A stretch of DNA of 64,000 nt. Source: Hanleya hanleyi (Eukaryota; Mollusca; Polyplacophora; Lepidopleurida; Hanleyidae). Below the pieces are notes generated by a model. It was not told the origin of the DNA. It ran no database searches and worked only from the letters and a program-made list of their open reading frames with translations. Shown piece by piece: positions 2,391-43,677 of this stretch. The stretch spans positions 1 to 64,000 of the forward strand of contig JAVTVY010025384.1 in assembly GCA_036873755.1 (NCBI GenBank). The letters run 5' to 3'. Numbering within the stretch: position 1 is the first letter of the stretch; each line of letters starts with the position of its first letter. The position numbers were made by a program, and so were the translations under genes.

Positions 2391-2392
2391 AC

Positions 2393-17462: not shown

Positions 17463-17713
17463 ATTAAGAATACTGATCAGCGATACGGATTTGATATTTT
17501 TGGAACATCATGATGTCTTGCCGGCATCATTGAAAACTGTTGACCGCTTCTCTCTTGCAGGAAACAAGCCTATGTTTATGTATACTTTTGTCTTTTTGAA
17601 TTTGGTGCTAATACTGTTATATGGAAATGGAATAGGTCTTTGGATTATGGACGCGGATATTCTCTAATGGACGACGGCTGGATTATGAATGACGGACTAG
17701 ACGCTTGTAATTT
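17463..17713 (+). repeat. Dispersed repeat block, copy 1 (copy 2 at 57.7 kb)
   Basis: About 250 bp nearly identical to the reverse complement of 57,735-57,987 (shared segments include gatcagcgatacggatttg and ggattatggacgcggat). Its last ~25 bp (aatgacggactagacgctt) also recur at 51,246-51,268. It probably represents the 3' end of a retroelement. Confidence 0.75.
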
Positions 17714-22565: not shown

Positions 22566-23459
22566 CCGTGGTATCCTGAATTATCCCATTTAATGTTCAA
22601 CACTCCACGTGAAAGTATACATCTAATAAAGTTTTAATTTTACTTATGAAGCCTGTCGAGAACCAAAATCATCTTTGGACAACTACTCGGTATTGATTCA
22701 ACCAATATATGTTTGTAAAGTTTGTTTTTGGTTTTGGTATAGAGAATATAAGGTAGTTATTTTACCCCAAAACAGACGATTTGGCACGAATACACTTCTT
22801 CGTTGAATTGTTATTCAAGAACGCCAAGACCTAGTGCCTGACAATTAATCTGAACATATGACAAGTTAACATTCTTTAAGCTAACGGAAAACTTTCTTTC
22901 GTACCTGGTACGCGATATTTCATTTAGGCACCCCAAACCGCACCTCATGGGGGTCAAATCCTCATCAAACCGCGCCAGGTCCTTTATAGTGCTTGGTTCT
23001 TTCGGTTGCGCATGCGCAGCCCTATTAAACGCATCATTAAAAGGGTGGCGAAAACGATGCCAGTCATATGATCCCTTACCTTATCAAATTTAATCAATTA
23101 AATCAATTGGTGACGCAATTAAGCATAAATCTGGTTATTTACCTGAACAATAAGATACTTGATTTTAATCTACTCATTCCACACAATCTGTAGATCTGGT
23201 TGATTATGTAGTTACTCAAATAGATAGCGCTTATGGATATTTTTCTTTGCAGTCCGTCATTCAATAAAGTGCAAAATGTCTATGAGTGATCGTGCGTTAT
23301 GTTTAATCCCATGAGGATTATCGAAGGTAATGCCACATACATGTATCAATGCATGGATTATAAACTCCCCAATGTACACACAACGTCTTCTTCAATTTTG
23401 ATTACATATAACTTCTGGGATGACTGAGTTTTTTTTTGTCATATTGAACTTGTGACATA
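22566..23459. other. No gene seen
   Basis: AT-rich sequence, no long ORF, no tandem or inverted structure noticed. Confidence 0.6.
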
Positions 23460-25102
23460 CATGGCAGTGTGACTAACGTCACAGGACCTACGAAGTACAG
23501 TAGGCATTAGGACTGGAACGCGAACGGAACTCTTGGAAATCCCCACCCCCAGTTGAAATCCTGCCTATATTAAGATGGGCACCGCCCAAGTCAGAATCGC
23601 CAGTGATTTTCATCAAAAATCAAAAGTAGGTCAGCTCAGAACTTGTTGGTAACAGTCTCCTAATGCGCCTTCATTCCAAAATAAATAACGATCGCCGATT
23701 TAATTTTACAATTTTTTAATTAAAGGAAACAGATTGAATAATATAGGTTCAGTAGATTTCAAGCTGAAAATACATTTACATCTCTTTAATGGTTTTCAGT
23801 GCCCTTGTCCAGGATCAAAACAACTTTTTGAATCACATTATTTTCCCAACAATACAACAATTTTTTATATATAGTACTATAGTAGAAAGGTAGCATTTAT
23901 GTAGTTTACGGTAATTCAACCCAAGACCAACACCTTCTATGCACAAGATAATAATGATTCTATGTCATTCTCCTGAGCATAACCGGTTCACAGACGAATA
24001 AATAGCGGCTCTACATCACATTGTTATATAGATATATGAGACAACACATTTTGGGCATCGGCAATCTGATGAATGTACTATTCCGGTTTTCTTGTTTCAC
24101 ATTATATTCTATGGCGGTTGATCGGTAATTTTCTTCATTGATAAACCTTAAACCACCTCAGCTTCGTTGTGTGAATCGGAATTGCATTGCTGTGACACAC
24201 CAGCACACTCCGTGGCAGTGATTCTGTATCCCCTAATCAAGGAATCAAAATGGATCAAGATTTGAATTGACAAGACAAATTTAGACATATTTTGTTTACA
24301 CATGTAATTTTTTATTCAAATTATATCCAAGTGTGATATATAGTCAATATTCAAGAGGTACAAAAAAAACCCAAAGTATGTCCTCATATTTTCACATCCA
24401 TGCCAGGAAATACTGCATTGAAAAGGGTCCATTTAGCCTACCCTGTTTTATCGCTCTAATCAGCAAATGGCGGGGTCATATTTCTGCTGTCAAAATTGTA
24501 TTTCCCTCCAAAGTCTTAACCCTTGAATCCAAGTCACACACTCTCTGATGCAAAGTAATGATTGTCCTAACTATCCGATTAGCACATTATGAACATGTCT
24601 TTGGTCATAGTGTACATATCATAACTCACATCAATGTTTTCTGCTATATTATTTCAATGATATGGTTTAACAATTTAAGTTATGGAAACAGCGCTGATTG
24701 TTTGAGGGTATATGCAGTAGTTAAGATTAACCTCAGTAATAGGGTCATGTGGCATACAGTGGGACAGGATATTTTTAGCTGTGGGTAATTTGACCTGAAT
24801 TTGAAGGCTCAAGCCTGATGTGGCCAATGTGAAATAGGATACACGTTAAAGGCTACAGTTCACATATATCTATAACAATATACTGAAGTGTTAATTATCA
24901 ATCTAATTTTAATCAGAATTATTTCAGATCAGAACTTGCTGGTAACAATGCCCTAATGCACGTTCATGCCAAAAATCAAGGTTCTAATGTCAACGTTTCT
25001 TCTTATTTTGCCGACGAAAGGATTTGGATGGACTGACTGACTGACTGACTGACTGACTGACTCATTACCGGACAATTTGCGGTCTGTAGCCTACTTCGTA
25101 GG
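23460..25102 (+). mobile_element. Dispersed element with CCTACGAAGTA ends, copy 1
   Basis: Starts with a shared leader (gcagtgtgactaacgtcac) and CCTACGAAGTAC at 23,487; ends with GCCTACTTCGTAGG at 25,102, an inverted version of the start. The first ~900 bp and last ~330 bp match copy 2 (25,509-27,806) closely, while the centre differs. A (GACT)n tract lies near its 3' end. No coding capacity seen. It may be a non-autonomous DNA transposon. Confidence 0.7.
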
Positions 25103-25216
25103 AAAATAGCCTAGAACATGCCCTCATTTTTTATATATAATAATTAAGTTGTGGTATAATATACCAATAAATGTAGTATATCTGACTCGTCCTAAAACGA
25201 TGTCATGTCTGCCTAT

Positions 25217-25272
25217 AGCTAAGATTCATAGCGTCTGCCTGTGAGGGAAGGGAGACGCTATGAATCTTAGCT
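25217..25272. other. Perfect 20-bp hairpin
   Basis: agctaagattcatagcgtct at 25,217-25,236 is the exact inverse complement of 25,253-25,272, with a 16-nt loop. It lies in the 400-bp gap between the two dispersed-element copies. Confidence 0.9.
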
Positions 25273-25374
25273 AGTCTGCCTACGGCACGATATTTCTACA
25301 GCACTATGAAATGGCAGCATTAGATCTGCTCTGTTACAAGTAGGTATCCCCTCCCCTCCCCTCCCTCTCCCTTC

Positions 25375-25443
25375 CCTTCCCAGTCGTGATATAGCTGAAC
25401 AAAGATTGAAAGCGGCGTAAAAACCTTATTCACTCACTCACTC
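25375..25443 (+). repeat. SINE 3' tail ending in (CACT)n
   Basis: cagtcgtgatatagctgaac ... cggcgtaaaaaccttattcactcactcact, same family as the 18.8 and 43.3 kb tails. Confidence 0.55.
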
Positions 25444-25508
25444 CTTGTCCCAAAACCTCACATAAGGCCCTCGCAGACTGAGGGCTTATTAATTATATCC
25501 CACTACTT

Positions 25509-27806
25509 ACATGAGCAGTGTGACTAACGTCACAGGACCTACGAAGTAGAGTAGGCATTAGGACTCGAACGCGAACTGAACTCTTGGAAATCCCCACCCC
25601 CAGTTGAAATCCTGCCTATATAAAGATGGGCACCGCCCAAGTCAGAATCGCCAGTGATTTTCATCAAAAATCAGCAGAAATTTTCATCAAAAGTAGGTAA
25701 GCTCAGAACTTGTTGGTAACAGTCTCCTAATGCGCCTTCATTCCAAAACTAAGTAGCGATCGCCGATTTAATTTTACAATTTTTTAACTGAAGGAAACAG
25801 ATTGAATAATAAAAAGTTCAGTAGATTTCAAGCTTTACGTGTGAAAATACATTTACATCTCTTTCATGGTTTTCAGTGCTCTTGTCCAGGATCAAAACAA
25901 CTTTTTGAATCGCATTATTTTCCCAACAATACAACAAATTTTTATATATAGTACTATAGTAGAAAGGTAGCATTTATGTGGTTTACGGTAATTCAACTCA
26001 AGACCAACACCTTCTCTGCACAAGATAATAATGATTCTATGTCATTCTCCTGAGCATAACCGGTACAAAGACGAATAAATAGCGTCTCTACATCACGTTG
26101 TTATTTCTAGATATATGAGACAACACATTTTGGGTATCGGCAATCTGATGAATGTACTATTCCGGTTTTCTTGTTTCACATTATATTCTATGGCGGTTGA
26201 TCGGTGATTTTCTTCATTGATAAACATTAAACCACTTCAGCTTCGTTGTGTGAATCGGAATTACATTGCTGTGACACACCAACACACTCCGTGCCAATGA
26301 TTCTGTATCCCCTAATCAAGGAATCAAAATGGATCAAGATTTGAAATGACAAGAAAAATTTAGACATATTTTGTTTACACATGTAATTTTTTGTTTAAGT
26401 TATATCCCAGTGTGATATATAGTCAATATTCAAGAGGTACAAAAAAACCTCAAAGTATGTACTCATATTTTCACATCATGATCAAAGTTACTTTATCTAG
26501 TTAAATTCTACCCAAAGAAAATAAATTAAGACCCTTTAAACATGCCGTCAATGCCAGATGTTGAGTCCTGTAGATCAGGGCTCTGGGTGCATATATCATG
26601 TTTCCATACACTTATGCACACAACAGCGGCAAAAAAAAAGCCTCCTTGAACAACCTATCTTTATACAGGAAATTCTTAACTCAGAAAATACCATTCTCTC
26701 TCAAAAGAAAACAATTTACGCCAGGAAGGCCTTTTTCATTAAGCTCATTTTGTTAGGTTGGTGCCTACTTAGATTCAATAATTGTCACGAAATTTCTTTG
26801 ATTATATCTTAATTGCAACCATGCATGTTTGTTCCTCAAACCTGACATGCTTGAGGTATGTACATGTATAACACACTTTCATTTGAGAGTCCAGACATTC
26901 CACCATTCATGTGAACAAATTGTACTCAATATGGAATAATTAAATTCACACTACCCATTTCTACAGTATTAGTACCATGTTACTATCTGTAGCAGTTGAA
27001 ACCCAGTAAAACCTAAACAATTAAAACCAGTAAAGAAATTTGTCTGTTGAATAACAGAAAATATGGTATGGATATTTGAATGAGTAAACTACTAAACAAC
27101 TTACATGATACCAACAAAATGTCCCAACACAAGCTGATAAATTCTTTGGGTGGCTTGCAGGATGGCTTTGTTTCACCCTCAGTAAACTTTTGTCATTGTT
27201 GCTCACAGGCTAATCTGAAGGATGATACCACATCTTTCTTTCTTCTGCTGGGTTATTGCCCCAGGCTGACTTAATTGGTTGATGTAGGATATTTCATCAG
27301 TGGCAATTTGACCTAAATTTGAAGCCTGATTTGGTCTGTGATGAAATGTTTGCACGTGAAATAGGATACACGTTAAAGGCGACAGTTTACATATATCTAT
27401 AACAATATACTGAATTGTGTGTATTAAGAATGGCAAGTTGGTAATAGCAGTGTAGATAAATGCACTAACAAATGATGGAAAATTAGCATTTCCTATTTCA
27501 TTATGCCATCACGTTTTGTACTGTGTTATATATACAGTGAAACATACAGACAAGGTTTCCCAATGGATATGACAGTGCACTCGCTGAGCTATCAATAAAT
27601 AATAAAAAAAATAATTATAAATCAAATTTTCATCAGAATTCGGTCAGCTCAGAACTTGCTGGTAACAATGCCCTAATGCACGTTCATGCCAAAACTCGAG
27701 GTTCTAATGTCAACGGTTCTCCTTGTTTTGCCGACGAAAGGATTCGGATGGACTGACTGACTCACTCATTACCGGACAATTTGCGATCTGTAGCCTACTT
27801 CGTAGG
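25509..27806 (+). mobile_element. Dispersed element with CCTACGAAGTA ends, copy 2
   Basis: Starts CCTACGAAGTAG at 25,538 after the same leader as copy 1 and ends CCTACTTCGTAGG at 27,806. The 5' part (to about 26,470) and 3' part (from about 27,290) match copy 1. The 26,480-27,290 centre is unrelated to copy 1 and contains only short ORFs without domains. Confidence 0.7.
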
Positions 27807-30144
27807 AAAAAATGATTCATGAAGACTGATAGAAGTATGCCTGCCCGGTATAAAAACTTTGGCTTGCTTTCAGTGCAAGAATGTTTCATTCGTTATCACA
27901 AATATATCATACAAAGAATAAACGGAAGTCAAGAATCCTAAACACTCATCTTCACATTGGGTTCAGGGTGTCATAGATGGAAACATGTATGAACAGATTA
28001 CACTCTTTCTTCGCTTCGGTAACACTAATTGTTCCATTTATGGGCCAAAAGCATTAATGGTTCACATAGGCACTTACTGACCCTTTAGGAAACCGAGACT
28101 AGTAGTATTATACTATTACTGAGACTTCCTGTCTGAAGAATCTGCCATTATTCGTATTACCAAGTTTCAATATTCAACGTGATCTTACTTCTTGTTGAAA
28201 GATAAAAACGATTTGGAAATTCCAAATCTAAATAATATAATTTTGGATCTGAAGTCCCTATCTTGACCAGTTACAGAGGTATGGAAATTAAACAGATTAT
28301 GGTGCCCCCGCTGACAGCCGATTAACATGTTGATCGTTTGTGTATTGTTGAGGAAATTGCCTAAATACCCTAACCAGGTAATCCCCTGCTAACATCAGTT
28401 GTATGACTTGTCACAAAGCGTTGACCAATCTATAAAGTATTATCCATCTATCCAGTTCATAAATTGCCATACACCATTATTGCTTATTTAATTTTCGGTC
28501 TTAGAACATCTGCTGAATTCCACATCATCTAAAGATTATTTTGAATATTTCAATGAGCCAAATAAGTCACTAAATTTGGCATTTTCGTCCAGTGAGATTC
28601 AACATTAATATCCCCATATTGTTGTATGGCTCATTGTGAAAATATACATTGGCCCACCAATGGATCAAGACAAGAAGTAAAACATCACATCATTCAAAGG
28701 CGATCCAAAGGTGACCCAAAAGTTATTCGCATCTCGATCTAATTTTATTGGAGACGCGAATGACTTTCGGCTCACCTTTGGACCATTGGTATTTGATCAA
28801 GAAAACTCACTCTGGTGAAATTGTTGCGAAGCTATTGCAAAATTGGTGTCACAATGCGACAATGCTTAGTATTAGTATTTTATTCTTTTTTATTCGCTTT
28901 TAATGATGCGAACTGTGATATATTGTGTAAACCAAATTTTACTCGAAACAGATAGCTCTTCAAAGAGGGAAATTTACGATTGTGAACTGAACTGATGACT
29001 GCTCCGATGACCTCACAGTGACGTCATATTATGAACATGCATAGTTCGTTTTCGGTCAGATTCAAAAAATCTTTTTTTTTTATTTTTTTTTTTTAATCTT
29101 TATTTTTCGGAAATATGTATGAACTGCTCGCTTGTGTGTCTACTTAGATGCAGTCCTTTTCTTCACAAAATGGCATAATAAATTAGAAAATCAATATCTG
29201 GTCATATAGATAAAAAATGTTGAGCATGTTATACAGAGTAACGCAAAAATTGAAGAAAATTTCACGTTTCAGGGATCTCTCAATGACCGCCACTTTAAAT
29301 TCACTCATGATCTTCCCCTAAAATTGACCCCAATATGACATATTATAAAGTCACAGAATGTCAGCTCTCAGTTTATATTTCAGTTTTCTGCAGATGGGGT
29401 GAAAGCTTAGTTGGTGCGGGGGCATACCCCCCCCCCCCCCCCCCCACTCCACTCTTTTCCCCCCAATCCTGGAGCGGTTAACGCCCATCCAAACGTGTCA
29501 TATCACACCTGCTATAGACTACTATCGGAGAGAGCCGAGTTACTTCATGGACCTTCAAGTGCACATTGGGGCAGTTGATAGAATACTGATTTTATGAACA
29601 ATGGAAACATTTTTTATGTGGTGTTGACTTGATTCAAAACGTTCATGGAAATCAAAACGTGACGTCAGTAGAGATGGTCAGTTGCATGAGAATGGATTCA
29701 TGTTTGATCAAAATGTCCTCACAGCATCTTTTTGAAATATATTGAGGCATCTATTTTGATAATCTTCTCGTTTCTATAGCTTTTTCTCAGTACAATATCA
29801 ACAGGCCGTTTTAATTTACTTTACTAAAGCGTTTTGGGTGCAACTGGCACAATGGAGGAACGATCTCTTGATAATAATAAATGACACCTGAAAGCAAATT
29901 TATATTTTCACAAAATATATTAGGGAATTCGAGCATTTGAAAGAACGGGTTATTGGGAACACATTTTGATCAAGCATATACCAGTTCTAATGCAATTGGC
30001 CATCGCATAATTTTCAAGGCTGATATTTCAGAATCTAAACTTCAAGAGAAAATCGATTTAGCGGGTTTTAGATTGAAAACAAATCAGCTATAAAACCGTC
30101 AGATACAACAAAAAAGGTTTTCCTATGCTACGTCACGTATTATT
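27807..30144. other. No gene seen; hairpin and poly-C tract
   Basis: No coding region supported. An imperfect hairpin lies at 28,705-28,735 / 28,751-28,781 (27 of 31 positions paired, 15-nt loop). A run of 19 C is at 29,427-29,445. A T-rich tract is at about 29,070-29,095. Confidence 0.6.
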
Positions 30145-30372
30145 CCTGCGAAGTAGGGTACCATCTGCAAATTGTCCGGTAGTCAGTGAGTGAGTGAGTG
30201 AGTGAGTCCATCCGAATCTTTAATAATAATAATAATAACATCTATATTTAGACTGGGTAGCTCGTATAGCTGAAGGCAAAATTCGGCGGCAAAATAAGGA
30301 GAACCGTTGACATTAGAACCTTGATTTTTTGCATGAAGGTGCATTATGGGGCTGTTACCAGCAAGTTATGAG
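30145..30372 (-). mobile_element. Dispersed element copy 3, 3' part, interrupted by the palindrome
   Basis: Read on the minus strand, this ends at 30,145 with a degenerate CTTCGCAGG terminus. It carries the family's caaggttctaatgtcaac and cttgctggtaac blocks and a (CACT)n tract. Its missing 5' part lies on the other side of the palindrome at 41,969-42,161. The two parts join cleanly as ...gtcag/ctca..., the order seen uninterrupted in copies 1 and 2. Confidence 0.78.
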
Positions 30373-30769
30373 TAGTAGAGAGAAGACGGATCCGGTCAAC
30401 TTTTCCAGGGAGGTAACTCTTGGTGCCCCTTTTTTCCAGGTTAAAGTATAGGGGGCGCCACATCGCCTTTCACCTCTGTGGCGCATGTGGCGCCAGGGGG
30501 CGCCACCAGCTCAAGGTCACGTGGAGGTCAAAAGTAGTTCCGGCAACCTTTAACCTTTGTATTCTTCCGCGGTCTGGTGGTGATGCCATCACTTCCGCGG
30601 ACAGAAAGTAGTCCCATGTCAACCAAGTGACTTCCAATGTTAATGTATACGGGGAATGCCTGAAAAGAGTATGGGAATAGATGTTTTGTGACCGGGGTGG
30701 GTCCCTAGTGGACCGAATGGGTAGAGTGATGTGTCAAAGTGAAGCGCTCCTCTAGGGCCATTCAGTCAT

Positions 30770-31165
30770 GGGCGGGTGCATGTAAAATTAGGATTTTTTC
30801 TCGAAAATATAAAAAGCGGAACACGGACTTTACCCCTAAAATAGGGGAAAACCCCTATCAACTCTAGACAAAAGGGCTAATGTCGGTCCCCGGGCTTTTC
30901 GGGGCCTGCCTATCAAGTCATTGGGGTGGGTGCATGTAAAATTAGGATTTCTTTCCGAAAATATAAAAAGCGAAACACGGACTTTACCCCTAAAATAGGG
31001 GAAAACCCCTATCAACTCTAGCCAAAAGGGCTAATATCGGTCCCCGGGCTTATCGGGGCTTGCCTATCAAGTCAATGGGGTGGGTGCATGTAAAATTATG
31101 ATTTTTTTCCGAAAATATAAAAAGCGGAACACGGACTTTACCCCTATAATAGGGGTCTGTATTAT
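30770..31165. repeat. ~150-bp tandem repeats, hairpin-rich, left arm
   Basis: About 2.6 copies of a ~150-bp unit beginning near tgggtgcatgtaaaattagg. Each unit contains CCCCTA...TAGGGG-type inverted pairs and a cggtccccgggc/ggggcc pair. The mirror copy is 41,090-41,585, with one unit more. Confidence 0.85.
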
Positions 31166-31179
31166 ACAATATAAGGGAA

Positions 31180-31510
31180 AATGCCTGTATGGGGTATGGG
31201 GATGGTCAATTTTTTTTGTGGGTGTTACTATGGGTTGTGGGGCACCGTTTTTCTCGTCTCGCCGAGAAAAACACAATGGGAGGGGTCCCGGAGTGAAGCG
31301 GTGCAATTTTTGGGAAAAGTCACCGAGGTCTGTATATAGGCTCATACTGGCTATATGGGGGAGGGGTGGTCAATTTTTTTTGTGGGTGTTACTATGGGTT
31401 GTGGGGTCTCGTTTTTCTCGTCTCGCCGAGAAAAATACAATGGGAGGGGTCCCGGAGCGAATCGTTGAAATTTTTGGGAAAAGTCACCGAGGTCTGTATA
31501 TAGGCCCATA
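31180..31510. repeat. ~175-bp direct duplication, left arm
   Basis: Two copies of a unit containing gtgggtgttactatgggttg, cgtctcgccgagaaaaa and gaaaagtcaccgaggtctgt. The right arm has only one copy (about 40,850-41,040). Confidence 0.8.
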
Positions 31511-32282
31511 GGCTGGCCATGGGGGGTATAGGTCCAACCTGGGAAATTCACACACGTTCATTGTGATATGGGTTGCTTGGATTTGTTTTTGACGTCTCGT
31601 CATTTAGAACACGATGAGAAGGGTCTCGGAGCGCAACGGTGAAATTTTTGGAAAGTTCACCGGGGCCTGGGTAGGCCCATATAGCTCCATACTGGCAATG
31701 GGGGTATAGGCCCATACTGGGTGAACGTTTTGGGGTCTAGGTGAGCCCCTAATGGTCCTATGGTGTCGTATGAGGTCTTATTTTGAAGCTCTCGTGGAGT
31801 TTGTAATGTATCGACTAATGGTTCGTCCGTGTTCAATAGTCTGCGCATGTGTAATCTGCCCGTAGTATAGAAAGCAGACATTTTTGGGGGGAGGGGTATG
31901 TGGGGGGTGTGTTTGGGGTAGAGATGGACCACTATGGGTCCAAATGGGTCGTGCAATGTGTCAAAGTGAAGCTTGTGTGGGGTAGAGTCAGAATGGCGTG
32001 TTTTTAAGTGCAAGTCGCGTCAATCTGCGCATGCGCAGTTGGGTGGAGTAAGTACAGTGGCCATTTTGGGGGTGCGTGGAGGTGTGTTTGGGGTAGAGAG
32101 GTACCATCCTTGGTCCGATTGTGTCGTGGGAGGTAATATCTTGTAGCTCTCGGGGTGTACATTCCGATTTGAGGGATGTCCATATCATCTGTGACGTCAT
32201 CGGTGACGTCATGAGTACGAGTAGTAGCGAAAGAGGGCATTTTGGGGCAGTGAAGGAAGGTATTTGGTGTAGAGATGGACCA

Positions 32283-33336
32283 TCCATATCTGTCACGCAT
32301 TATACCATATCTTTGTTGTGTTATACCACATCTGTCCTGCATTATACCATATATGTCTTGTATTATACCATACCTGTCCTATGTTATACAATATCTGTCC
32401 TGTATTGTACCATATTTGTCCTCTATTATACCATATATGTCCTGTATTATACCAAATCTGCCCTGTATTATACAGTATCTGTCCTGTATTATACCAAATC
32501 TGTGCTGCAGTATACCAAATCTGTGCTGTATTATACAATATCTGTCCTGTGTTATACCATATCTGTGCTGTATTATACAATATCTGTCCTGTATTATACA
32601 ATATCTGTCCAGTATTCTGCAATATATGTTCTGTATTATACCAAATCTGTCCTGTATTATACAGTATCTGTCCTGTATTGTACCATATATGTCCTGTATT
32701 ATACCAAATCTGTGCTGCATTATACCAAATCTGTGCTGTATTATACAATATCTGTCCTGTGTTATACCATATCTGTGCTGTATTATACAATATCTCTCCT
32801 GTATCATACAATATCTGTCCAGTATTCTGCAATATATGTTCTGTATTATACCAAATCTGTCCTGTATTATACAGTATCTGTCCTGTATTGTACCATATAT
32901 GTCCTGTATTATACCAAATCTGTGCTGTATTATACAATATTTGCCCTCTATTATACCATATCTGTGCTGTATTATACCATATCTGTCCTGAATTATACCA
33001 TATCTGTGCTGTATTATGCAATATCTGTCCTGTGTTATACAATATCTGTCCTGTATTATACCAAATCTGTCCTGTTTTGTACCATATTTGTCCTGTATTA
33101 TACAATATATGTTCTGTATTATACCAAATCTGTGCTGTATTATACAGTATCTGTCCTGTATTATACCAAATCTGTGCTGTATTATACAATATATGTTCTG
33201 TATTATACCAAATCTGTCCTGTATTATACAGTATATGTCCTGTATTATACCAAATCTGTGCTGTATTATACCATATCTGTCCTGTATTGTACCATATATG
33301 TCCTGTATTATACAATATATGTTCTGTATTATACAA
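32283..33336. repeat. 21-bp minisatellite, left arm (about 50 copies)
   Basis: The unit ctgtattatacaatatctgtc and variants repeats with a 21-bp period. Because 21 is divisible by 3 and the unit lacks stops in several frames, long overlapping ORFs appear on both strands (up to ~400 codons); I read them as artefacts of the repeat. Confidence 0.93.
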
Positions 33337-33612
33337 TCGGATAGCCGTTGTGGTGAATAACAACAAGTTCAGCAATGTTCATACAGTTTATTATCCCCAA
33401 TGTTACATCATACCCAGGCTGGGAGAGCCGCTCTGGGCATGTTTAGTATGTTCACAGCAAATCAAATTGAAATATCAAACACCATGTTTTATTATTTAAC
33501 GCACCGTCACATTAGGTACAAGTGTTTACTGAGCTCAAGTCAACGATCAGCATGTAGAAATATAGAGTATGTACGGCATGTTATGGTATTCATCAGTGCA
33601 CGGGTGACGCAT

Positions 33613-34502
33613 TCAGCCGAAGGGGTAGGTCACCCTCTCCATTGTCCACTTGGTATTGGGACGTTGTTCTTGGGCCCATTCCAAGGGATCCACGGTGTCC
33701 AGTTTCTCCAGCATTGTCCCTAGCGACATCCGGTTAATGATGGTAAACGGTTGGTCAAATACCTGGATGTTACTGCTCGGGTAAAAATATCGGACTTGGA
33801 CTGTCTCCTTATGCTGCAGCACATAACCAAACGCCAGATTCAATTTGAAGGCCGTAGTTTGGTCGTTGAAGATGGCTTCCACGTAGCTACGTAGACGGGC
33901 GAGGTCGGTCAGTCGGAAATTATAGATATCTTGAATAGGGCGATGACGGTTGAAACGTTGCCGTATCATGGACCAATGGCGCCGATAGATGTCACTCACT
34001 GGATGGGCGTCCTGTAAGAGATCGCTAGGCACATTTATGGGCTCGTCCAGAAAATGTTCGATGTTGTCAGGCGTATGATTCGAAACCGTAACGGTGGGGT
34101 CCGGCTGGATATCCAGGCTCTTCTGAACTGTGGGTATAGGCGGGCTCTCCGTCATCGCATCACCAGTGGCGTTCGTCTCCCCGGGTCCATCTTCACTGGG
34201 TCTGACCTTCCGCGGCTCCTCTTCAGTGGAAAGTTGTCGCCCAAACCGTAGAGACGGGCATGAATCAAACGCTGATGCCGTCTTAACTGACTGCGTCGTT
34301 TGAAGAGTTGATCACAATCCTTGCATTGTTCCGTCGCGCCCCCGTGGAATGAGCGTTCGTGGCGCAGTAAAGGATCCTTCCGATTAAATGACCGTGCGCA
34401 TGTTATACAAGTATACCGTGCATCGTTGTGGGTGGAGGCCTCGTGGCGGTGCAAGTCGTGCAGCCGAGTAAACTGCTTCTGGCAAGTTGTGCAAGTGAAC
34501 AT
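33613..34502 (-). pseudogene. Gene A: zinc-finger + Polinton PolB N-domain protein, frameshifted (left arm)
   Basis: Same gene as A' (38,329-39,231), read outward on the left arm from ATG 34,502. The three C2H2 fingers are intact (CTTC, CITC and CKDC pairs). Near 34,255-34,245 the frame shifts relative to A', and that first frame stops at 34,152. The PolB N-domain (DIYRRHW, AFKLNLAFGY, FDQPFT) continues from about 34,155 in the other frame to 33,613. A ~26-bp deletion removes the C-terminal residues found in A', so the protein ends after MERVT with four different residues. TATA box 34,546-34,555; poly(A) signal 33,493-33,488. Confidence 0.82.
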
Positions 34503-34545
34503 CTTGGTGGCTGACAGAGTGTCTGATGAAATGGCCAGGCCGCTT

Positions 34546-34555
34546 CCCTTTTATA
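34546..34555 (-). promoter_or_regulatory. TATA box of gene A
   Basis: TATAAAAGGG on minus, about 45 nt upstream of ATG 34,502; embedded in a block identical in all four genes. Confidence 0.75.
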
Positions 34556-34648
34556 GCACGCTAGCTGGTGATCTATTTTTAGAAGACTCAGTTCAACGAT
34601 CCCCAAGTCGAGGGCCGAGATGTACTGGCGTACGACTGAGCCGCATTG

Positions 34649-34677
34649 CGTGTGTGTGTGTGTGTGTGTGTGTGTGG
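34649..34677. repeat. (GT)n microsatellite
   Basis: About 14 GT units upstream of gene A; the mirror position in the right arm is (CA)n at 38,134-38,161. Confidence 0.9.
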
Positions 34678-34976
34678 GCAGTGGATTTTACATCCGGGAT
34701 CTTGTCAACATTTGGGTTTCCAAGCGGGTTTTTCCCATCGTTCCTCCGTCTTCCATCCGGGTACTGTGGTTTTACATCTGTGTCCTCATCTTACATCCGT
34801 GTTTTTCATGAGCCGCATTGCGCGTGTGTGTGTTTGTGTTTGTGTCCATTCGTGTACGATGTAGAATTACGTTCTCTTCGAAAACTTCCTGTCATCGCAT
34901 CAATATGCTCAGACCCATTCAAAATAAACACAACCAAGAGACTTCAACAACAACAGGCACATTGTGCAATACACGT

Positions 34977-34982
34977 TTTATT
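34977..34982 (-). terminator. Poly(A) signal of gene B
   Basis: AATAAA on minus about 100 nt after the gene B stop; equivalent to AATAAA at 37,825-37,830 for B'. Confidence 0.6.
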
Positions 34983-35078
34983 ATCCTCACACCATCACCA
35001 CCATCACCACCTGGCGTTGACGCCGTCAACGATCAGCATGTCGACATATAGAGTATGTACGGCATGTTATGGTATTCA

Positions 35079-35993
35079 TCAGTGCATGAGTGACGCATTC
35101 AGCCGATGGGGGTGGTCGGTCAGCTTGGTAACGAAAAACGTGACATTGGTCACCCTCTCTACGACCCATTGTGTGTTGGGGCGTTGTTGTTGGGCCCATT
35201 CCAAGGGATCCACGGTGTCCAGTTTCTCCAGCATCGCCTCTAGCGACGCCCGGTTAATGATGGTAAACGGTTGGTCAAATACCCGGATGTTACTGCTCGG
35301 GTAAAAATATCGGGCTTGGTCTGTGTCCTTATGCTGCAGCACATAACCAAACGCCAGATTCAACTTGAAGGCCGTAATTTGATCGTTGAAGATGGCTTCC
35401 ACGTAGCTGCGTAGACGGGCGAGGTCGGTCAGTCGGAAATTGTAGATATCTTGAATAGGGCGATGACGGTAGAAACAGTGCCGGATCATGGGCCAATGGC
35501 GCCGATAGATGTCACTCACTGGATGGTCTTCGTGTAACAGATCGCTAGGAACATTTATGGGTTCGTCCACGAAGTGTACTTTGCCCTCCACGTCGTACAA
35601 AATCTGGCCCAAGATCTTGTCGTCGGAATTTGACTGTTGAATTAGGGCGACATCATCATCGGCCCTCGTGCGATGGGTGGGAGTTCCCCCTGTCTCGATA
35701 TTGGTGCCTACGGGCTCTTCTACCTGCAAACGTGGCTGCGGAACAGGGTGTCGTGTGCGTTGGTGTCGCAGCAACTGACTGGTCAGTTTGAAAAGCCGAC
35801 CACATTCTTCGCATGGGCGCTTGGGTACTTCATGGCGTGCACGTGTGTGGCGCTGTAAATGATCTGGGCGCTGAAACGACAGTGTACATATCGCACAGCT
35901 ATACCGGGCGGTTCCTTCGTGCTTGGTAGACTCATGGCGGCGCAAGTCATGCAGACGAGTGAATGATTTCGAACACGTAGTAGAAGTGAACAT
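35079..35993 (-). CDS. Gene B: zinc-finger + Polinton PolB N-domain protein, intact (304 aa)
   Basis: Complete ORF from ATG 35,993 to stop at 35,079. Finger 1 has lost its first Cys (Ser4; C7, H20, H25 remain). Finger 2 (C33-C36-H49-H54) and finger 3 (C61-C64-H77-H82) are canonical. An acidic/polar linker spans ~85-150. Residues ~170-300 match the N-terminal domain of the Polinton polymerase at 9,926: DIYRRHW, YNFRL, AFKLNLAFGY, RYFYPSSN, FDQPFT, DPLEWAQ, QRPNTQW. No exonuclease or polymerase motifs follow; a stop and a poly(A) signal do. TATA box at 36,037-36,046. A DNA-binding or interference role (for instance at Polinton ends) is inference only. Confidence 0.85.
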   Translation of the reverse strand: MFTSTTCSKSFTRLHDLRRHESTKHEGTARYSCAICTLSFQRPDHLQRHTRARHEVPKRPCEECGRLFKLTSQLLRHQRTRHPVPQPRLQVEEPVGTNIETGGTPTHRTRADDDVALIQQSNSDDKILGQILYDVEGKVHFVDEPINVPSDLLHEDHPVSDIYRRHWPMIRHCFYRHRPIQDIYNFRLTDLARLRSYVEAIFNDQITAFKLNLAFGYVLQHKDTDQARYFYPSSNIRVFDQPFTIINRASLEAMLEKLDTVDPLEWAQQQRPNTQWVVERVTNVTFFVTKLTDHPHRLNASLMH

Positions 35994-36036
35994 CTTGGTG
36001 GTTGACAGAGTGTCTGATGAAACGGCCAGGCCGCTT

Positions 36037-36046
36037 CCCTTTTATA
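36037..36046 (-). promoter_or_regulatory. TATA box of gene B
   Basis: TATAAAAGGG on minus, 45 nt upstream of ATG 35,993. Confidence 0.75.
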
Positions 36047-36133
36047 GCACGCTAGCTGGTGATCTATTTTTAGCACACTCTACCCCAAGTCGAGGATTGA
36101 GACTGGTGTACTGGTGTACGACTGAGCCGCATT

Positions 36134-36176
36134 GCGCGCGCGCGCGCGCGTGTGCGTATGTGTGTGTGTGTATGTA
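36134..36176. repeat. (GC)n/(GT)n microsatellite
   Basis: Alternating purine-pyrimidine (cgcgcgcg then gtgtgtgt), a potential Z-DNA tract. The mirror is at about 36,659-36,692 in the right arm. Confidence 0.9.
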
Positions 36177-36360
36177 TGGGCTGTGGATTTTACATCCGGG
36201 ATCTTGTCAACATCCGGGTTTCCAAGTGGGTTTTACCCGTCGTTCCTCCGTCATCCATCCGGGTACTGTGGTTTTACATCCGGGTCCCCATCTTACAGCC
36301 GGGTTTTGGACACCTGTTGACCTCAATAATTTGCACATGACCTCTGTGAGGTCACTTTCG

Positions 36361-36470
36361 CTTCCGTTCACGTGACCGGAACTGACCTTTGGCCCCTGCG
36401 CGCGCAATTTTTATCCGGTTTTGTCAGCGCGCGCAGGGGCCAAAGGTCAGTTCCAGTCACGTGAACGGAA
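36361..36470. other. Centre of symmetry of the palindrome
   Basis: Arms ending cctttggcccctgcgcgcgc (to 36,405) and its complement from 36,427 flank a 21-nt spacer (36,406-36,426). A CACGTG lies in both arms. Flanking ACATCCGG-type motifs and TATA boxes are symmetrical about it. Confidence 0.92.
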
Positions 36471-36660
36471 GCGGAAGTGACCTCACAGAGGTCATGTGCA
36501 AATTATTGAGGTCAACAGGTGTCCATAACCCGGCTGTAAGATGGGGACCCGGATGTAAAACCACAGTACCCGGATGGATGACGGAGGAACGACGGGAAAA
36601 ACCCACTTGGAAATCGGGATGTTGACAAGATCCCGGATGTAAAATCCACAGCCCATACAT

Positions 36661-36691
<31 letters not shown>

Positions 36692-36777
36692 ATGCGGCTC
36701 AGTCGTACACCAGTACACCAGTCTCAATCCTCGACTTGGGTTAGAGTGTGCTAAAAATAGATCACCAGCTAGCGTGC

Positions 36778-36787
36778 TATAAAAGGG
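36778..36787 (+). promoter_or_regulatory. TATA box of gene B'
   Basis: TATAAAAGGG, 44 nt upstream of ATG 36,831. Confidence 0.7.
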
Positions 36788-36830
36788 AAGCGGCCTGGCC
36801 GTTTCATCAGACACTCTGTCAACCACCAAG

Positions 36831-37728
36831 ATGCTCGAAATCATTCACTCGTCTGCATGACTTGCGCCGCCATGAGGCTACCAAGCACGAAGGAACCGCC
36901 CGGTATAGCTTTACGATATGTGCACTGTCGTTTCAGCGCCCGGATCATTTACAGCGCCACACACGTGCACGCCATGAAGTACCCAAGCGCCCATGCGAAG
37001 AATGTGGTCGGCTTTTCAAACTGACCAGTCAGTTGCTGCGATACCAACGCACACGATACCCTGTTCCGCAGCCACGTTTGCAGGTAGAAGAGCCCGTAGG
37101 CACCAATATCGAGACAGGGGGAACTCCCACCCATCGCACGAGGGCCGATGATGATGTCGCCCTAATTCAACAGTCAAATTCCGACGACAAGACCTTGGGC
37201 CAGATTTTGTAAGACGTGGAGGGCAAAGTACACTTCGTGGACGAACCCATAAATGTTCCTAGCGATCTGTTACACGAAGACCACCCAGTGAGTGACATCT
37301 ATCGGCGCCATTGGCCCATGATCCGGCACTGTTTCTACCGTCATCGCCCTATTCAAGATATCTACAATTTCCGACTGACCGACCTCGCCCGTCTACGCAG
37401 CTACGTGGAAGCCATCTTCAACGATCAAATTACGGCCTTCAAGTTGAATCTGGCGTTTGGTTATGTGCTGCAGCATAAGGACGCAGACCAAGCCCGATAC
37501 TTTTACCCGAGCAGTAACATCCGGGTATTTGACCAACCGTTTACCATCATTAATCGGGCGTCGCTAGAGGCGATGCTGGAGAAACTGGACACCGTGGATC
37601 TCTTGGAATGGGCCCAACAACAACGCCCCAACACACAATGGGTCGTAGAGAGGTTGACCAATGTCACGTTTATCAATACCAAGCTGACCGACCACCCCCA
37701 TCGGCTGAATGCGTCACTCATGCACTGA
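36831..37728 (+). pseudogene. Gene B': broken right-arm copy of gene B
   Basis: Mirror of gene B. About 17 bp are deleted straight after the ATG (36,831), so the native start runs into a stop within ten codons. The rest is open in a frame entered from upstream. Finger residues are eroded: finger 2 reads YSFTIC (Cys to Phe), and two finger 3 His are Tyr (LLRYQRTRY). A TAA at 37,210-37,212 replaces the Tyr codon of B. The PolB N-domain from 37,216 to stop 37,726-37,728 is otherwise well kept. It has lost coding function while its left-arm partner B stays intact. Confidence 0.88.
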
Positions 37729-37824
37729 TGAATACCATAACATGCCGTACATACTCTATATGTCTACATGCTGATCGTTGACGGCGTCAACGCCAGGTGG
37801 TGATGGTAGTGATGGTGTGAGGAT

Positions 37825-37830
37825 AATAAA
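37825..37830 (+). terminator. Poly(A) signal of gene B'
   Basis: AATAAA about 100 nt after the stop; symmetrical with the gene B signal. Confidence 0.55.
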
Positions 37831-38130
37831 ACGTGTATTGCGCAATGCGCCTGTTGTTGATGATGTCACTTGGTTGTGTTTATTTTGAATGGATCTGAGC
37901 ATATTGATGCGATGAGAGGAAGTTTTCGAAGAGAGCGTAATTCTACATTGTGCGCGAATGGACACAAACACAAACACACACACGCGCGCAATGCGGCTCA
38001 TGAAAAACACGGATGTAAGATGAGGACACGGATGTAAAACCACAGTACCCGGATGGAAGACGGAGAAACGATGGGAAAAACCCACTTGGAAACCCAGATG
38101 TTGACAAGATCCCGGATGTAAAATCCACTG

Positions 38131-38161
<31 letters not shown>

Positions 38162-38275
38162 CAGCGCGCACACACACACACGCAATGCGGCTCAGTCGTA
38201 CGCCAGTTCATCTCGGCCCTCGACTTGGGGATCGTTGAACTGACTGTGCTAAAAATAGATCATCAGCTAGCGTGC

Positions 38276-38285
38276 TATAAAAGGG
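38276..38285 (+). promoter_or_regulatory. TATA box of gene A'
   Basis: TATAAAAGGG, 44 nt upstream of ATG 38,329. Confidence 0.75.
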
Positions 38286-38328
38286 AAGCGGCCTGGCCGT
38301 TTCATCAGACACTCTGTCAGCCACCAAG

Positions 38329-39231
38329 ATGTTCACTTGCACAACTTGCCAGAAGCAGTTTACTCGTCTGCACGACTTGCACCGCCACGAGGCCTCCACC
38401 CACAACGATGCACGGTATACTTGTATAACCTGCGCACGGTCATTTAATCGGAAGGATCCTTTACTGCGCCACGAACGCTCATTCCACGAGGGCGCGACGG
38501 AACAATGTAAGGATTGTGGTCAACTCTTCAAACGACGCAGTCAGTTAAGACGGCATCAGCGTTTGATTCATGCCCCGTCTTTACGGTTTGGGCGACAACT
38601 TTCCACTGAAGAGGAGCCGCGGAAGGTCAGACCCAGTGAAGATGAACCCGGGGAGACGAACGCCACTGGTGATGCGATGACGGAGAGCCCGCCTATACCC
38701 ACAGTTCAGAAGAGCCTGGATATCCAGCCGGACCCCACCGTTACGGTTTCGAGTCATACGCCTGACAACATCGAACATTTTCTGGACAAGCCCATAAATG
38801 TGCCTAGCGATCTCTTACAGGACGCCCATCCAGTGAGTGACATCTATCGGCGCCATTGGTCCATGATACGGCAATGTTTCAACCGTCATCGCCCTATTCA
38901 AGATATCTATAATTTCCGACTGACCGACCTGGCCCATCTACGTAGCTACGTGGAAGCCATCTTCAACGACCAAACTACGGCCTTCAAATTGAATCTGGCG
39001 TTTGGTTATGTGCTGCAGCATAAGGAGACAGTCCAAGTCCGATACTTTTACCCGAGCAGTAACATCCAGGTATTTGACCAACCGTTTACCATCATTAACC
39101 GGATGTCGCTAGAGACGATGCTGGAGAAACTGGACACCGTGGATCCCTTGGAATGGGCCCAACAACAACGCCCCAATACCAAGTGGACAATGGAGAGGGT
39201 GACCAATGCTACGTTTTCGTTACCAAGCTGA
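38329..39231 (+). CDS. Gene A': zinc-finger + Polinton PolB N-domain protein, intact (300 aa)
   Basis: Complete ORF. Three canonical C2H2 fingers: C4-C7-H20-H25, C32-C35-H48-H53, C60-C63-H76-H81. A polar linker with acidic and Pro/Thr residues spans ~90-165. Residues ~170-292 match the Polinton polymerase N-domain (DIYRRHW, YNFRL, AFKLNLAFGY, RYFYPSSN, FDQPFT, DPLEWAQ, QRPNTKW). The last residues (ATFSLPS) differ from gene B because one T is missing in a T-run near 39,215, moving the frame to an early TGA. The Polinton polymerase at 9,926 starts directly with this domain and has no such fingers in front. TATA box at 38,276; AATAAA at 39,368-39,373. Confidence 0.87.
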   Translation: MFTCTTCQKQFTRLHDLHRHEASTHNDARYTCITCARSFNRKDPLLRHERSFHEGATEQCKDCGQLFKRRSQLRRHQRLIHAPSLRFGRQLSTEEEPRKVRPSEDEPGETNATGDAMTESPPIPTVQKSLDIQPDPTVTVSSHTPDNIEHFLDKPINVPSDLLQDAHPVSDIYRRHWSMIRQCFNRHRPIQDIYNFRLTDLAHLRSYVEAIFNDQTTAFKLNLAFGYVLQHKETVQVRYFYPSSNIQVFDQPFTIINRMSLETMLEKLDTVDPLEWAQQQRPNTKWTMERVTNATFSLPS

Positions 39232-39367
39232 CCTACCCCCTCGGCTGAATGCGTCACCCGTGCACTGATGAATACCATAACATGCCGTACATACTCTATA
39301 TTTCTACATGCTGATCGTTGACTTGAGCTCAGTAAACACTTGTACCTAATGTGACGGTGCGTTAAAT

Positions 39368-39373
39368 AATAAA
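39368..39373 (+). terminator. Poly(A) signal of gene A'
   Basis: AATAAA about 140 nt after the A' stop; the left-arm counterpart is at 33,493-33,488 (-). Confidence 0.55.
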
Positions 39374-39524
39374 ACATGGTGTTTGATATTTCAATTTGAT
39401 TTGCTGTGAACATACTAAACATGCCCAGGGCGGATCTCCCAGCCTGGGTATGATGTAACATTGGGGATAATAAACTGCATGAACATTGCTGAACTTGTTG
39501 TTATTCACGACAACGGCTATCCGA

Positions 39525-40545
39525 TTGCATAATACAGAACATATATTGTATAATACATGACATATATGGTACAATACAGGACAGATATGGTATAATACAG
39601 CACAGATTTGGTATAATACAGGACATATACTGTATAATACAGGACAGATTTGGTATAATACAGAACATATATTGTATAATACAGCTCAGATTTGGTATAA
39701 TACAGGACAGATACTGTATAATACAGCACAGATTTGGTATAATACAGAACATATATTGTGTAATACAGGACAAATATGGTACAAAACAGGACAGATTTGG
39801 TATAATACAGGACAGATATTGTATAACACAGGACAGATATTGCATAATACAGCACAGATATGGTATAATTCAGGACAGATATGGTATAATACAGCACAGA
39901 TATGGTATAATAGAGGGCAAATATTGTATAATACAGCACAGATTTGGTATATTAGGACATATATGGTACAATACAGGACAGATACTGTATAATACAGGAC
40001 AGATTTGGTATAATACAGAATATATATTGCAGAATACTGGACAGATATTGTATAATACAGGACAGATATTGTAAAATACCGCACAGATTTGGTATAATGC
40101 AGCACAGATTTGGTATAATACAGGACATATATGGTACAATACAGGACAGATAGTGTGTAATACAGGACAGATTTGGTATAATACAGAACATATATTGCAG
40201 AATACTGGACAGATATTGTATAATACAGGACAGATATTGTATAATACAGCACAGATATGGTATAACACAGGAAAGATATTGTATAATACAGCACAGATTT
40301 GGTATAATGCAGCACAGATTTGGTATAATACAGGACAGATACTGTATATTACAGGGCAGATTTGGTATAATACAGGACATATATGGTATAATAGAGGACA
40401 AATATGGTACAATACAGGACAGATTTGGTATAATACAGGACAGATATTGTATAACATAGGACAGGTATGTTATAATACAGGACATATATGGCATAATGCA
40501 GGACAGATGTGGTATAACACAACAAAGATATGGTATAATGCGTGA
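39525..40545. repeat. 21-bp minisatellite, right arm
   Basis: Mirror of 32,283-33,336 with the same 21-bp period and differing variant order, so the two arrays have diverged by indels of whole units. Confidence 0.93.
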
Positions 40546-41089
40546 CAGATATGGATGGTCCATCTCTACACCAAATACCTTCCTTCACTGCCCCGAAATG
40601 CCCACTTTCGCTACTGCTCGTACTCATGACGTCACCGATGACGTCACAGATGATATGGACAGGTTGAACCCATACCCCCATATAGCCAGTATGGGACTAT
40701 ATGGGCTATATGGTACTTTTCCAAAAATTTCACCGTTGCGCTCCGAGACCCTTCCCATCGTGTTCTAAATGACGAGATGTGAAAAACAAATCCAAGCAAC
40801 CCATATCACAATGAACGTGTGTGAATTTCCCAGGTTGGACCTATACCCCCACGGCCAGCCTATGGGCTTATATACAGACCTCGGTGACTTTTCCCAAAAA
40901 TTTCAACGATTCGCTCCGGGACCCCTCCCATTGTATTTTTCTCGGCGAGACGAGAAAAACGAGACCCCACAACCCATAGTAACACCCACAAAAAAATTGA
41001 CCATCCCCATACCCCATACAGGCATTTTCCCTTATATTGTATAATACAGACCCCTATTGTAGGGGTAAAGTCCGTGTTCCGCTTTTTAT

Positions 41090-41585
41090 ATTTTCGGAAA
41101 AAATCCTAATTGTACATGCACCCACCCCATTGACTTGATAGGCAGGCCCCGATAAGCCCGGGGACCGATATTAGCCCTTTTGGCTAGAGTTGATAGGGGT
41201 AAAATCCGTGTTCCGCTTTTTATATTTTCGGAAAGAAATCCTAATTTTACATGCACCCACCCCAATGACTTGATAAGCAGGCCCCGATAAGCCCGGGGAC
41301 CGATATTAGCCCTTTTGGCTAGAGTTGATAGGGGTTTTCCCCTATTTTAGGGGTAAAGTCCGTGTTCCGCTTTTTATATTTTCGGAAAGAAATCCTAAAT
41401 TTACACGCACCCACCCCATTGACTTGATAGGCAGGCCCCGATAAGCCCGGGGAACCGATATTAGCCCGTTTGGCTAGAGTTGATAGGGTTTTTCCCCTAT
41501 TTTAGGGGTAAAGTCCGTGTTCCGCTTTTTATATTTTCGGGGAAAATTCCTGATTTTACATGCACCCACCCATGACTGAATGGCC
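41090..41585. repeat. ~150-bp tandem repeats, hairpin-rich, right arm
   Basis: About 3.3 copies of the unit described for 30,770-31,165, in inverse orientation. Confidence 0.85.
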
Positions 41586-41968
41586 CTAGAGGAGCGCTTC
41601 ACTTTGACACCTCACTCGACCCATTCGGTCCACTAGGGACCCACCCCGGTCACAAAACATCTATTCCCATACTCTTTTCAGGCATTCCCCGTATACATTA
41701 ACATTGGAAGTCACTTGGTTGACATGGGACTACTTTCTGTCCGCGGAAGTGACGGCATCACCACCAGACCGCGGAAGAATACAAAGGTTAAAGGTTGCCG
41801 GAACTACTTTTGACCTCCACGTGACCTTGAGCTGGTGGCGCCCCCTGGCGCCACATGCGCCACAGAGGTGAAAGGCGATGTGGCGCCCCCTATACTTTAA
41901 CCTGGAAAAAAGGGGCACCAAGAGTTACCTCCCTGGAAAAGTTGACCGGATCCGTCTTCTCTCTACTA

Positions 41969-42161
41969 CTGACCTACTTTTGATGAAAATGTCTGGTGAT
42001 TTTTGATGAAAATCACTGGTGATTCTGACTTGGGCTGTGCCCATCTTAATATAGACAGGATTTCAACTTGGGGCGAGGGGATTTCCAAGGGTTCAATGAG
42101 CGTCGGAGTCCTAATGCCTACCCTACTAAGTAGGTCCTGTGACGTTAGCCACACTGCCATG
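41969..42161 (-). mobile_element. Dispersed element copy 3, 5' part
   Basis: On minus it reads gcagtgtggctaacgtcac, CCTACTTAGTAGG, the cccaagtcagaatca block and catcaaaagtaggtcag, then breaks at the palindrome. The same order is uninterrupted at 23,460-23,650 and 25,509-25,700. Confidence 0.8.
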
Positions 42162-42284
42162 TTACGATCGCTTTCTAAATGATAAAAATATATCCATTCA
42201 GTTGTGCGAGCTGTGTTATTACGATCATCAGAGGAGTACTGCATATCCGTTTTCAAGACTACCAGTCTGCTACCTTCCTATTTT
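42162..42284. other. No gene seen
   Basis: Short AT-rich spacer between element copy 3 and the tRNA-derived SINE. Confidence 0.5.
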
Positions 42285-43329: not shown

Positions 43330-43677
43330 GTGAGTGAGCAGTAGTAGGGTTTAACGTCGTTTTCAACCTTGTTTCAGTCATATCACGACGGTGCCTACAT
43401 GTGCCAGAACACGAGAGTGCTTACAGTTCCTATTATCCTGGACACTGATCAGCCCAGCCAGTACAGCACCCGGTCACCCATTCAAGTATTGACCGAGCTT
43501 AACGTTGCTTAACTTCGGTGATCTGACGAGAACCGGTGTTTCCAACGCTATAAGCCCGGTGATCTGACGAGAACCGGTGTGTCCAACGCTATAAGACCGG
43601 TGATCTGACGAGAACCGGTATGTCCAACGCTATAAGCCCGGTGATCTGACGAGAACCGGTGTGTCCAACGCTATAAG
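43330..43677 (-). repeat. 5S-rRNA-derived SINE (SINE3 type) with tandemly amplified head segment
   Basis: On minus, the stretch down from about 43,555 (ACCGGTTCTCGTC, GATCACCGAAGTTAAGCAAC, GGTCAATACTTGAATGGGTG, ACCGGGTGCTGT) reads as 5S rRNA including its internal promoter region. The body and a (CACT)n-type tail run to about 43,330. The 5'-proximal ~41-bp piece is repeated four times (starts at 43,515, 43,557, 43,598 and 43,639). The head continues beyond the inserted element at 47,254-47,266. Deviations from 5S and the fused tail exclude a functional 5S gene. Confidence 0.85.
43672..43677. repeat. Target site duplication (left), TATAAG
   Basis: Matches 47,248-47,253 across the inserted element. 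Confidence 0.85.

Follow-up and report, generated by a model that had tools for sequence, protein, structure and literature searches.

A dispersed palindromic Polinton derivative encoding stand-alone PolB N-terminal domains in the chiton Hanleya hanleyi

Polintons (Mavericks) are the described elements closest to the subject of this study, an 11.6-kb palindrome in the genome of Hanleya hanleyi (Mollusca; Polyplacophora; assembly GCA_036873755.1, 2.48 Gb in 52,793 contigs), which we analyzed together with a neighboring Polinton in a window of 64,000 nucleotides (positions 1–64,000 of contig JAVTVY010025384.1, here C20741). Vertebrate Mavericks most often end in (AGT)2, the intact ones with 6-bp target-site duplications (TSDs), and have terminal inverted repeats (TIRs) of 46–1447 bp, according to parts of PMC8097293. 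The palindrome is like Polintons in its AGT-repeat termini, inverted repeats, 6-bp TSDs and in the N-terminal domain of the polymerase PolB (the terminal protein, TP, domain) with a promoter at the element end. In contrast to them, it lacks a polymerase core, an integrase and virion genes, encodes the TP domain alone, probably exists in many more copies, and has inverted repeats that span the element (~5.5–6 kb per arm), nearly the whole of it being one giant TIR. By termini, TSDs and gene homology the palindrome is a Polinton derivative; in gene content it is not an autonomous Polinton. We consider it likely that the palindrome belongs to a non-autonomous type of Polinton derivative (a "Polinton satellite") of which many copies are dispersed in the genome, and which is replicated by protein priming via a hairpin stage and integrated by a helper.

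Several other systems invite comparison. Inverted-repeat defective genomes of adenoviruses are palindromic deletion derivatives of protein-primed linear DNA, and Vierula and Bertrand reportedly described in 1992 a kalilo plasmid deletion derivative forming hairpin and duplex DNA; the palindrome is alike in this respect, whereas those derivatives are extrachromosomal by-products and the present element is chromosomal, amplified, flanked by TSDs in part of its copies and equipped with TP-domain genes. The foldback-like element Galileo shares long inverted repeats with inner tandem repeats, and its first known copies consisted of long TIRs only (in parts of PMC3573991). Galileo, however, belongs to the P superfamily and has TIRs of ~0.3–1.2 kb, whereas the termini and genes of the palindrome are Polinton-like. 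Satellite viruses and virophages are comparable, by analogy only, in their reliance on the replication or packaging genes of a helper; unlike them, the palindrome has no capsid gene, is a chromosomal repeat and has the same terminal tag as one gene-bearing Polinton. We know of no system among those compared in which TP-only genes are combined with a private two-ended tag. Among the titles and abstract openings listed from the open-access literature, none showed a Polinton derivative that is palindromic or encodes TP only (subscription papers and Repbase lying outside this search).

An earlier note on this DNA had described an 11.6-kb palindrome with a 21-nt spacer and unequal arms, and this description was confirmed by inverted alignments and sequence reading. 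The parts of the window copy are as follows.

30371–41970 (no strand): whole palindromic element, by inverted alignment; bounds match the end of host-repeat similarity (30371/30372, 41969–41972)
36406–36426 (no strand): central spacer, 21 nt, with GCGCGC on either side, by sequence reading
30371–30400 (+): left terminal tag, AGTAGTA plus 23 variable nt; equals the right end and both ends of the gene-bearing Polinton C46875
41941–41970 (−): right terminal tag, same 30 nt as the left tag, by sequence comparison
30401–30769 (+): conserved outer block, starting TTTTCCAGGGAGGTAACTCTTGG, by comparison of copies
30770–32180 (+): minisatellite zone of the left arm, units of 154 and 164 bp, by repeat scan
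40662–41571 (−): minisatellite zone of the right arm, ~0.5 kb shorter, by repeat scan
32284–33334 (+): 21-bp tandem array of the left arm, 50 units, by repeat scan
39529–40554 (−): 21-bp tandem array of the right arm, 49 units, by repeat scan

In gapped comparison the two arms (30371–36405 and 36427–41970) give a main inverted alignment of 33628–39204 onto itself with 95.6% identity across 5628 columns, supplemented by the array portion (93.1%, 1456 columns) and the outer portion (96.9%, 778 columns); the longest ungapped arm pairs measure 1156, 726, 631 and 524 nt with 97–99% complementarity. In the right arm, ~0.5 kb of the minisatellites toward the outside is missing (31655–32176 in the left arm); the earlier note gave a deletion of ~480 bp. 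As also noticed before, AGTAGTAG stands at both outer ends of the palindrome and, identically, at the Polinton end at 10272. Similarity of the left flank to two other repeats in the window extends as far as 30371/30372, and that of the right flank, again to two repeats, starts at 41969–41972 or 41997. A host repeat without insertion near 23.6 kb reads CAAGTTCTGAGCTGACCTAC (three further repeats read the same or similarly), and the sequences bordering the palindrome are CAAGTTATG and GACCTAC; the site is therefore filled, with no target duplication in the window copy. Host repeats lie at 23455–26480, 27612–27810, 30282–30371 and 41972–42162, the palindrome standing between two of these and apparently inside one.

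Each arm carries two genes (U1 and U2), in which C2H2 zinc fingers are fused to the Polinton PolB N-terminal domain and which stop short of the protease (vOTU) domain of PolB.

35079–35993 (−): U1 left, intact open reading frame (ORF) of 304 aa, 3 C2H2 plus TP domain (ORF list, Pfam, tblastn)
36745–37728 (+): U1 right, broken, frame pieces 36745–37212 and 37213–37728 (ORF list, tblastn)
34152–34502 (−): U2 left, zinc-finger ORF, 3 C2H2 (ORF list, Pfam)
33613–34155 (−): U2 left, TP-domain ORF, in a frame different from the zinc fingers (ORF list, tblastn)
38329–39231 (+): U2 right, ORF of 300 aa, 3 C2H2 plus TP domain (ORF list, Pfam, tblastn)
36037–36046 (−): TATAAAAGGG promoter motif, U1 left (motif count)
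36778–36787 (+): TATAAAAGGG promoter motif, U1 right (motif count)
34546–34555 (−): TATAAAAGGG promoter motif, U2 left (motif count)
38276–38285 (+): TATAAAAGGG promoter motif, U2 right (motif count)

Gene content of the element was checked by tblastn, ORF lists and a Pfam scan of four ORFs. Eleven stop-free ORF pieces of the window Polinton, compared with the element by tblastn, matched it solely with the PolB start (residues 31–183 of ORF 9129–10004), four times and at 56–60% at the amino acid level; with the PolB beside a Polinton terminus on C22167, the palindrome gives 64–67% across 94–102 aa. The palindrome ORFs are homologous to the N-terminal domain standing before vOTU in PolB, and the complete protein-primed PolB of an autonomous Polinton is absent. 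Pieces from the integrase region, the capsid region, the protease and later PolB had no tblastn match to the element at E up to 1e-3, none of these window Polinton queries being identified as ATPase; the absence of integrase, capsid and catalytic polymerase proposed earlier agrees with this result. The proposed Polinton-end layout on the inner sides of the arms is supported as well: TATAAAAGGG occurs five times in the window against 0.18 expected, at the Polinton promoter and at the four palindrome genes, in addition to the matches to the PolB start, and ACATCCGG occurs 12 times against 1.5 expected. PolB of the window Polinton itself (6318–10004, −) consists of four overlapping frame pieces, the first with the TP domain and a vOTU-like motif, KCLFRCLAVH; Pfam comparison of the window Polinton ORFs gave only weak zinc-finger and adenovirus-protease matches, under curated cut-offs.

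A preprint attributes the PolB N-terminal domain to the terminal protein that primes replication. A predicted structure of the palindrome protein is compatible with this assignment, and alignment and model place a candidate linking residue in RPN[T/S]xW, within the loop that leads from helix 2 to the last strand and close to Pro/Gly. According to the preprint, the linking residue of D1 domains is Ser or Tyr; the palindrome proteins mostly have Thr. No solved terminal protein was among the matches of the fold searches, although one may exist.

The element is a member of a family dispersed in the same assembly. A search with 601 bp of the inner gene gave, as the best 40 of 1424 candidates, the window and 39 places at 97–98%, including plus/minus pairs of inner genes ~2.5 kb apart on four contigs; a search with 219 bp of the center gave, as the best 40 of 1604 candidates, 40 different contigs (the window and 39 others at 93–96%); with the outer 300 bp, the best 40 of 2836 candidates were scored. 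The candidate counts are unscored first-look places and, if most of them are real, the copy number is on the order of a thousand. IMG/VR yielded no relatives. Twenty of the 40 inner-gene places, picked by position, were taken for reading: all 20 show the order array, U2, U1, and 16 have a complete outer block and minisatellites. Of the other four, L022 is truncated by the limits of its piece, the outer block of L028 is short, and outer parts are absent from L023 and L024. The center, consisting of GCGCGC, a spacer like TAACAATACCGGATAAAAATT and GCGCGC, is recognizable in 16 of the 20, is partly deleted in a few copies (L010, L023, L027) and is missing from L017 and L026; the contigs of L013 and L014 stop before it. 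L017, L026 and L027 (center missing, rearranged or partly deleted) are candidates for center loss following insertion. The contigs of L013 (C17846) and L014 (C10278) end ~0.1–0.4 kb short of the expected center, probably an effect of assembling a palindrome.

Both ends were read in ten copies, the window included. Perfect 6-bp TSDs (TGGCTT, GTTCTC, CTGACT, GATGGT) flank four of these palindromes, among them C28564 (L026) with its rearranged center; identical 6-bp flanks were not found in the other six, including the window copy. Three other AGTAGTA-ended elements (C46875, C17260 and C16227) all have perfect 6-bp duplications. The junction is common to many copies, several insertions bear 6-bp duplications, and the palindrome itself is the mobile form; both the Polinton derivation and the mobility of the family are well supported. 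The earlier idea of a mini-Polinton dimer left by aberrant replication stands as to a Polinton-derived, head-to-head structure and is unsupported as to an aberrant leftover, since the junction is multi-copy and the palindrome moves with TSDs. The two contigs that stop before the center (C17846, C10278) might raise the suspicion of an artefact, from assembly or from hairpin reads, or of a rearrangement that happened only once; yet all 40 scored junctions (the best 40 of 1604) lie on 40 contigs, the arms have diverged by ~2% in the four copies compared, and TSDs stand at the two outer ends of four copies, so that we find this explanation hardly credible. Assembly artefact was rejected on the junction in 40 contigs and the TSDs, a rejection that holds unless the whole assembly is wrong. 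The earlier note had likewise thought a hairpin-read artefact unlikely, and had stated that a lack of relatives at other loci would favor a one-off; with its junction on 39 other contigs of the same assembly, the palindrome is no one-off.

The genes show signs of both selection and decay. U1 is without stops or frame changes in 8 of 20 copies (window reference included) and U2 in only one of 21, namely the window right-arm reference itself, from which each of the remaining 20 U2 copies has at least one frame-changing difference. Pooled ratios of nonsynonymous to synonymous polymorphism (pN/pS) are 0.635 for U1 and 0.55 for U2 (all pairs, non-independent); between U1 and U2, the corresponding ratio of divergences (dN/dS) is 0.15 for the fingers and 0.33 for TP. 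From these values and the broken ORFs in most copies, the zinc-finger-TP proteins seem to have been under constraint once, present copies decaying. Since dS between U1 and U2 is 0.21 in the TP parts vs. 2.1 (saturated) in the fingers, recent conversion of the TP parts of these tandem genes is suggested. Four TP genes without a polymerase, together with the U1–U2 dN/dS below 1, would also suit a domesticated or defensive element, whose stand-alone zinc-finger-TP proteins interfere with Polintons by occupying origins or polymerase and which spreads as a by-product; dispersed copies, TSDs and many broken ORFs, however, suit a parasite, and we hold such a defensive role to be quite improbable.

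The second feature of the family, unmentioned in the earlier note as was the TP domain of the ORFs, is a variable 23-nt tag at the ends. Ends were located by the pattern AGTAGTA, 10–32 nt and the core TTTTCCAGGGAGGTAACTCTTGG with at most 4 errors, by which the end frame is partly chosen. AGT-type inverted termini were found in the window copy and in other copies: the pattern located an end in 16 of the 20 first pieces (L012, L022 and L024 gave none, and the end of L023 belongs to a different family). Thirteen further pieces yielded 10 ends, with none in L030, L032 and L039. All but one of 21 tags have 23 nt from AGTAGTA to the core, a distance left open by the pattern; the exception has 24 nt. 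Over the first 30 nt, the two ends of a copy are 0.93–1.00 identical in 7 of 10 copies; in C17197, C52076 and C5154, which have no TSD, they are 0.40–0.53 identical, and these three may represent recombinants or include termini that belong to other elements. When different copies are compared, identity of the same 30 nt averages 0.55 (SD 0.11, maximum 0.93) and that of the rest of the outer block 0.851 (SD 0.153, in an alignment with some poorly fitting rows). With as many as 3 mismatches allowed, the terminal 40-mer of C49407 has 4 matches (two exact ones, at the ends of that element, and one common variant at both element ends of C30493) and that of C17393 has 10 (exact only at its own two ends), reversed-pattern controls giving 0. 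The tag is usually private to one element. On C13984 (35219–65194) four ends with one variant of the C17393 tag, two + and two −, mark nested or duplicated elements. In a comparison for block swapping between tags, exact common blocks among 20 of the 21 tags (the 24-nt tag left out) numbered 2, 6 and 8 vs. column-shuffle means of 0.14, 0.58 and 0.50 and maxima of 3, 5 and 6, the first count lying inside the shuffle range.

The same tags link the palindromes to gene-bearing Polintons. When 3 or fewer mismatches are allowed, the 30-nt end of the window copy has 14 matches. Six are exact, namely those at the two ends of the window copy, those at the two ends of C46875, which stand 12.4 kb apart, and one each on C26539 and C28899. 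The flank of C28899 equals the right flank of C46875, and the two are therefore probably one locus on two contigs. Behind the common core, C46875 is unlike the palindrome; the protein encoded in its middle part is related to ORF 2183–3163 of the window Polinton (48% across 166 aa). A C22167 end with 3 mismatches to the window tag is adjoined by a PolB start. Members of the window Polinton family have AGTAGTA and a variable stretch, as a rule of 23 nt, followed by TTTCACCCGG, and the gene-bearing Polinton C17260 has the same tag at both ends. Because the TIR of C17260 (~0.9 kb) includes the PolB start at both ends, right and left ends are indistinguishable by this feature, and the earlier proposal that two right ends were fused is best worded as something that may have happened.

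We infer from these observations a hairpin stage, the use of helper enzymes, the TP function and a role of the tag. The element probably replicates by protein priming, with a hairpin or panhandle as an intermediate. An element-encoded or helper TP would prime synthesis at the AGTAGTA ends, and PolB of gene-bearing Polintons with a matching end tag would carry it out; the displaced palindrome strand could fold into one long hairpin, whose completion to duplex would make both arms copies of one arm and the tags at the two ends of each new copy equal; a helper integrase would then insert the element, a 6-bp duplication resulting. Repeat termini suit jumping-back initiation, as in adenovirus and phage phi29, and panhandle annealing in ordinary inverted-terminal-repeat replication would equalize the ends likewise.

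Comparisons of the arms bear on this hairpin model. Inner arms are 97.8% identical within copies (n = 4) vs. 97.2% between, the own arm being nearest in 1 of 8 cases. For the outer 900 bp, identity is 0.88–0.97 within five equal-tag copies with adequate alignment (C17393 aligned over 123 columns only and C28564 was too short) vs. a mean of 0.924 between copies, and for the 21-bp array 0.969–0.983 within (n = 4) vs. a between-copy mean of 0.968 and maximum of 0.989. Array lengths are equal in L020 (498 nt in both arms) and differ in L016 (1338 and 937). Complete homogenization of the arms in each cycle is weakly supported by these data; a star-like burst with decay after insertion would also yield the same arm identities. 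Within-copy arm identity that barely exceeds identity between copies also speaks for TIR extension by host recombination, in which a Polinton deletion derivative turned palindromic once, by template switching or gene conversion in the manner of foldback-like transposons, and was then moved like any non-autonomous element by integrase alone without hairpin replication. One common junction requires only a single event, and Galileo TIRs grow by recruiting inner sequence, as parts of PMC3573991 state. Host recombination by itself, however, leaves unexplained why a hypervariable stretch of 23 nt matches its counterpart at the opposite end in 7 of 10 copies when the remaining sequence is less variable, and a similar variable end in gene-bearing Polintons points to a replication origin. 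We therefore judge it unlikely, and hairpin replication of the satellite plausible.

For the tag itself we offer a tentative and somewhat doubtful extension, an interchangeable replication address. Each Polinton lineage would have a distinct tag that is recognized by the zinc-finger-TP priming protein of this lineage; satellites would persist by wearing the tag of a helper, both ends being rewritten from one end in hairpin or panhandle replication, and tags would diversify by swapping of short blocks. Free TP genes would come from the satellite itself, so that just the polymerase, the integrase and perhaps capsids would have to be borrowed. Residues of the internal fingers are unlikely to vary along with the tag, because the U1 ORF is 95–98% identical in most copies.

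Elsewhere in the window, a 5S rRNA-like stretch at 43447–43563 (−; Rfam RF00001, 53 bits) overlaps a 41-bp tandem array (43516–43677), a 32-bp tandem array of ~36 units occupies 51638–52769 with GC skew down to −0.58, and an inverted pair of ~255 bp with 95% identity lies at 17458–17712 and 57735–57993.

Overall, a natural multi-copy satellite with stand-alone TP-domain genes, a near-perfect palindrome and a two-ended tag makes protein priming and end recognition of Polintons testable. This family may be the first described Polinton satellite with its own priming protein, and it may provide natural variation at a putative origin, with variants numbering in the hundreds or more.

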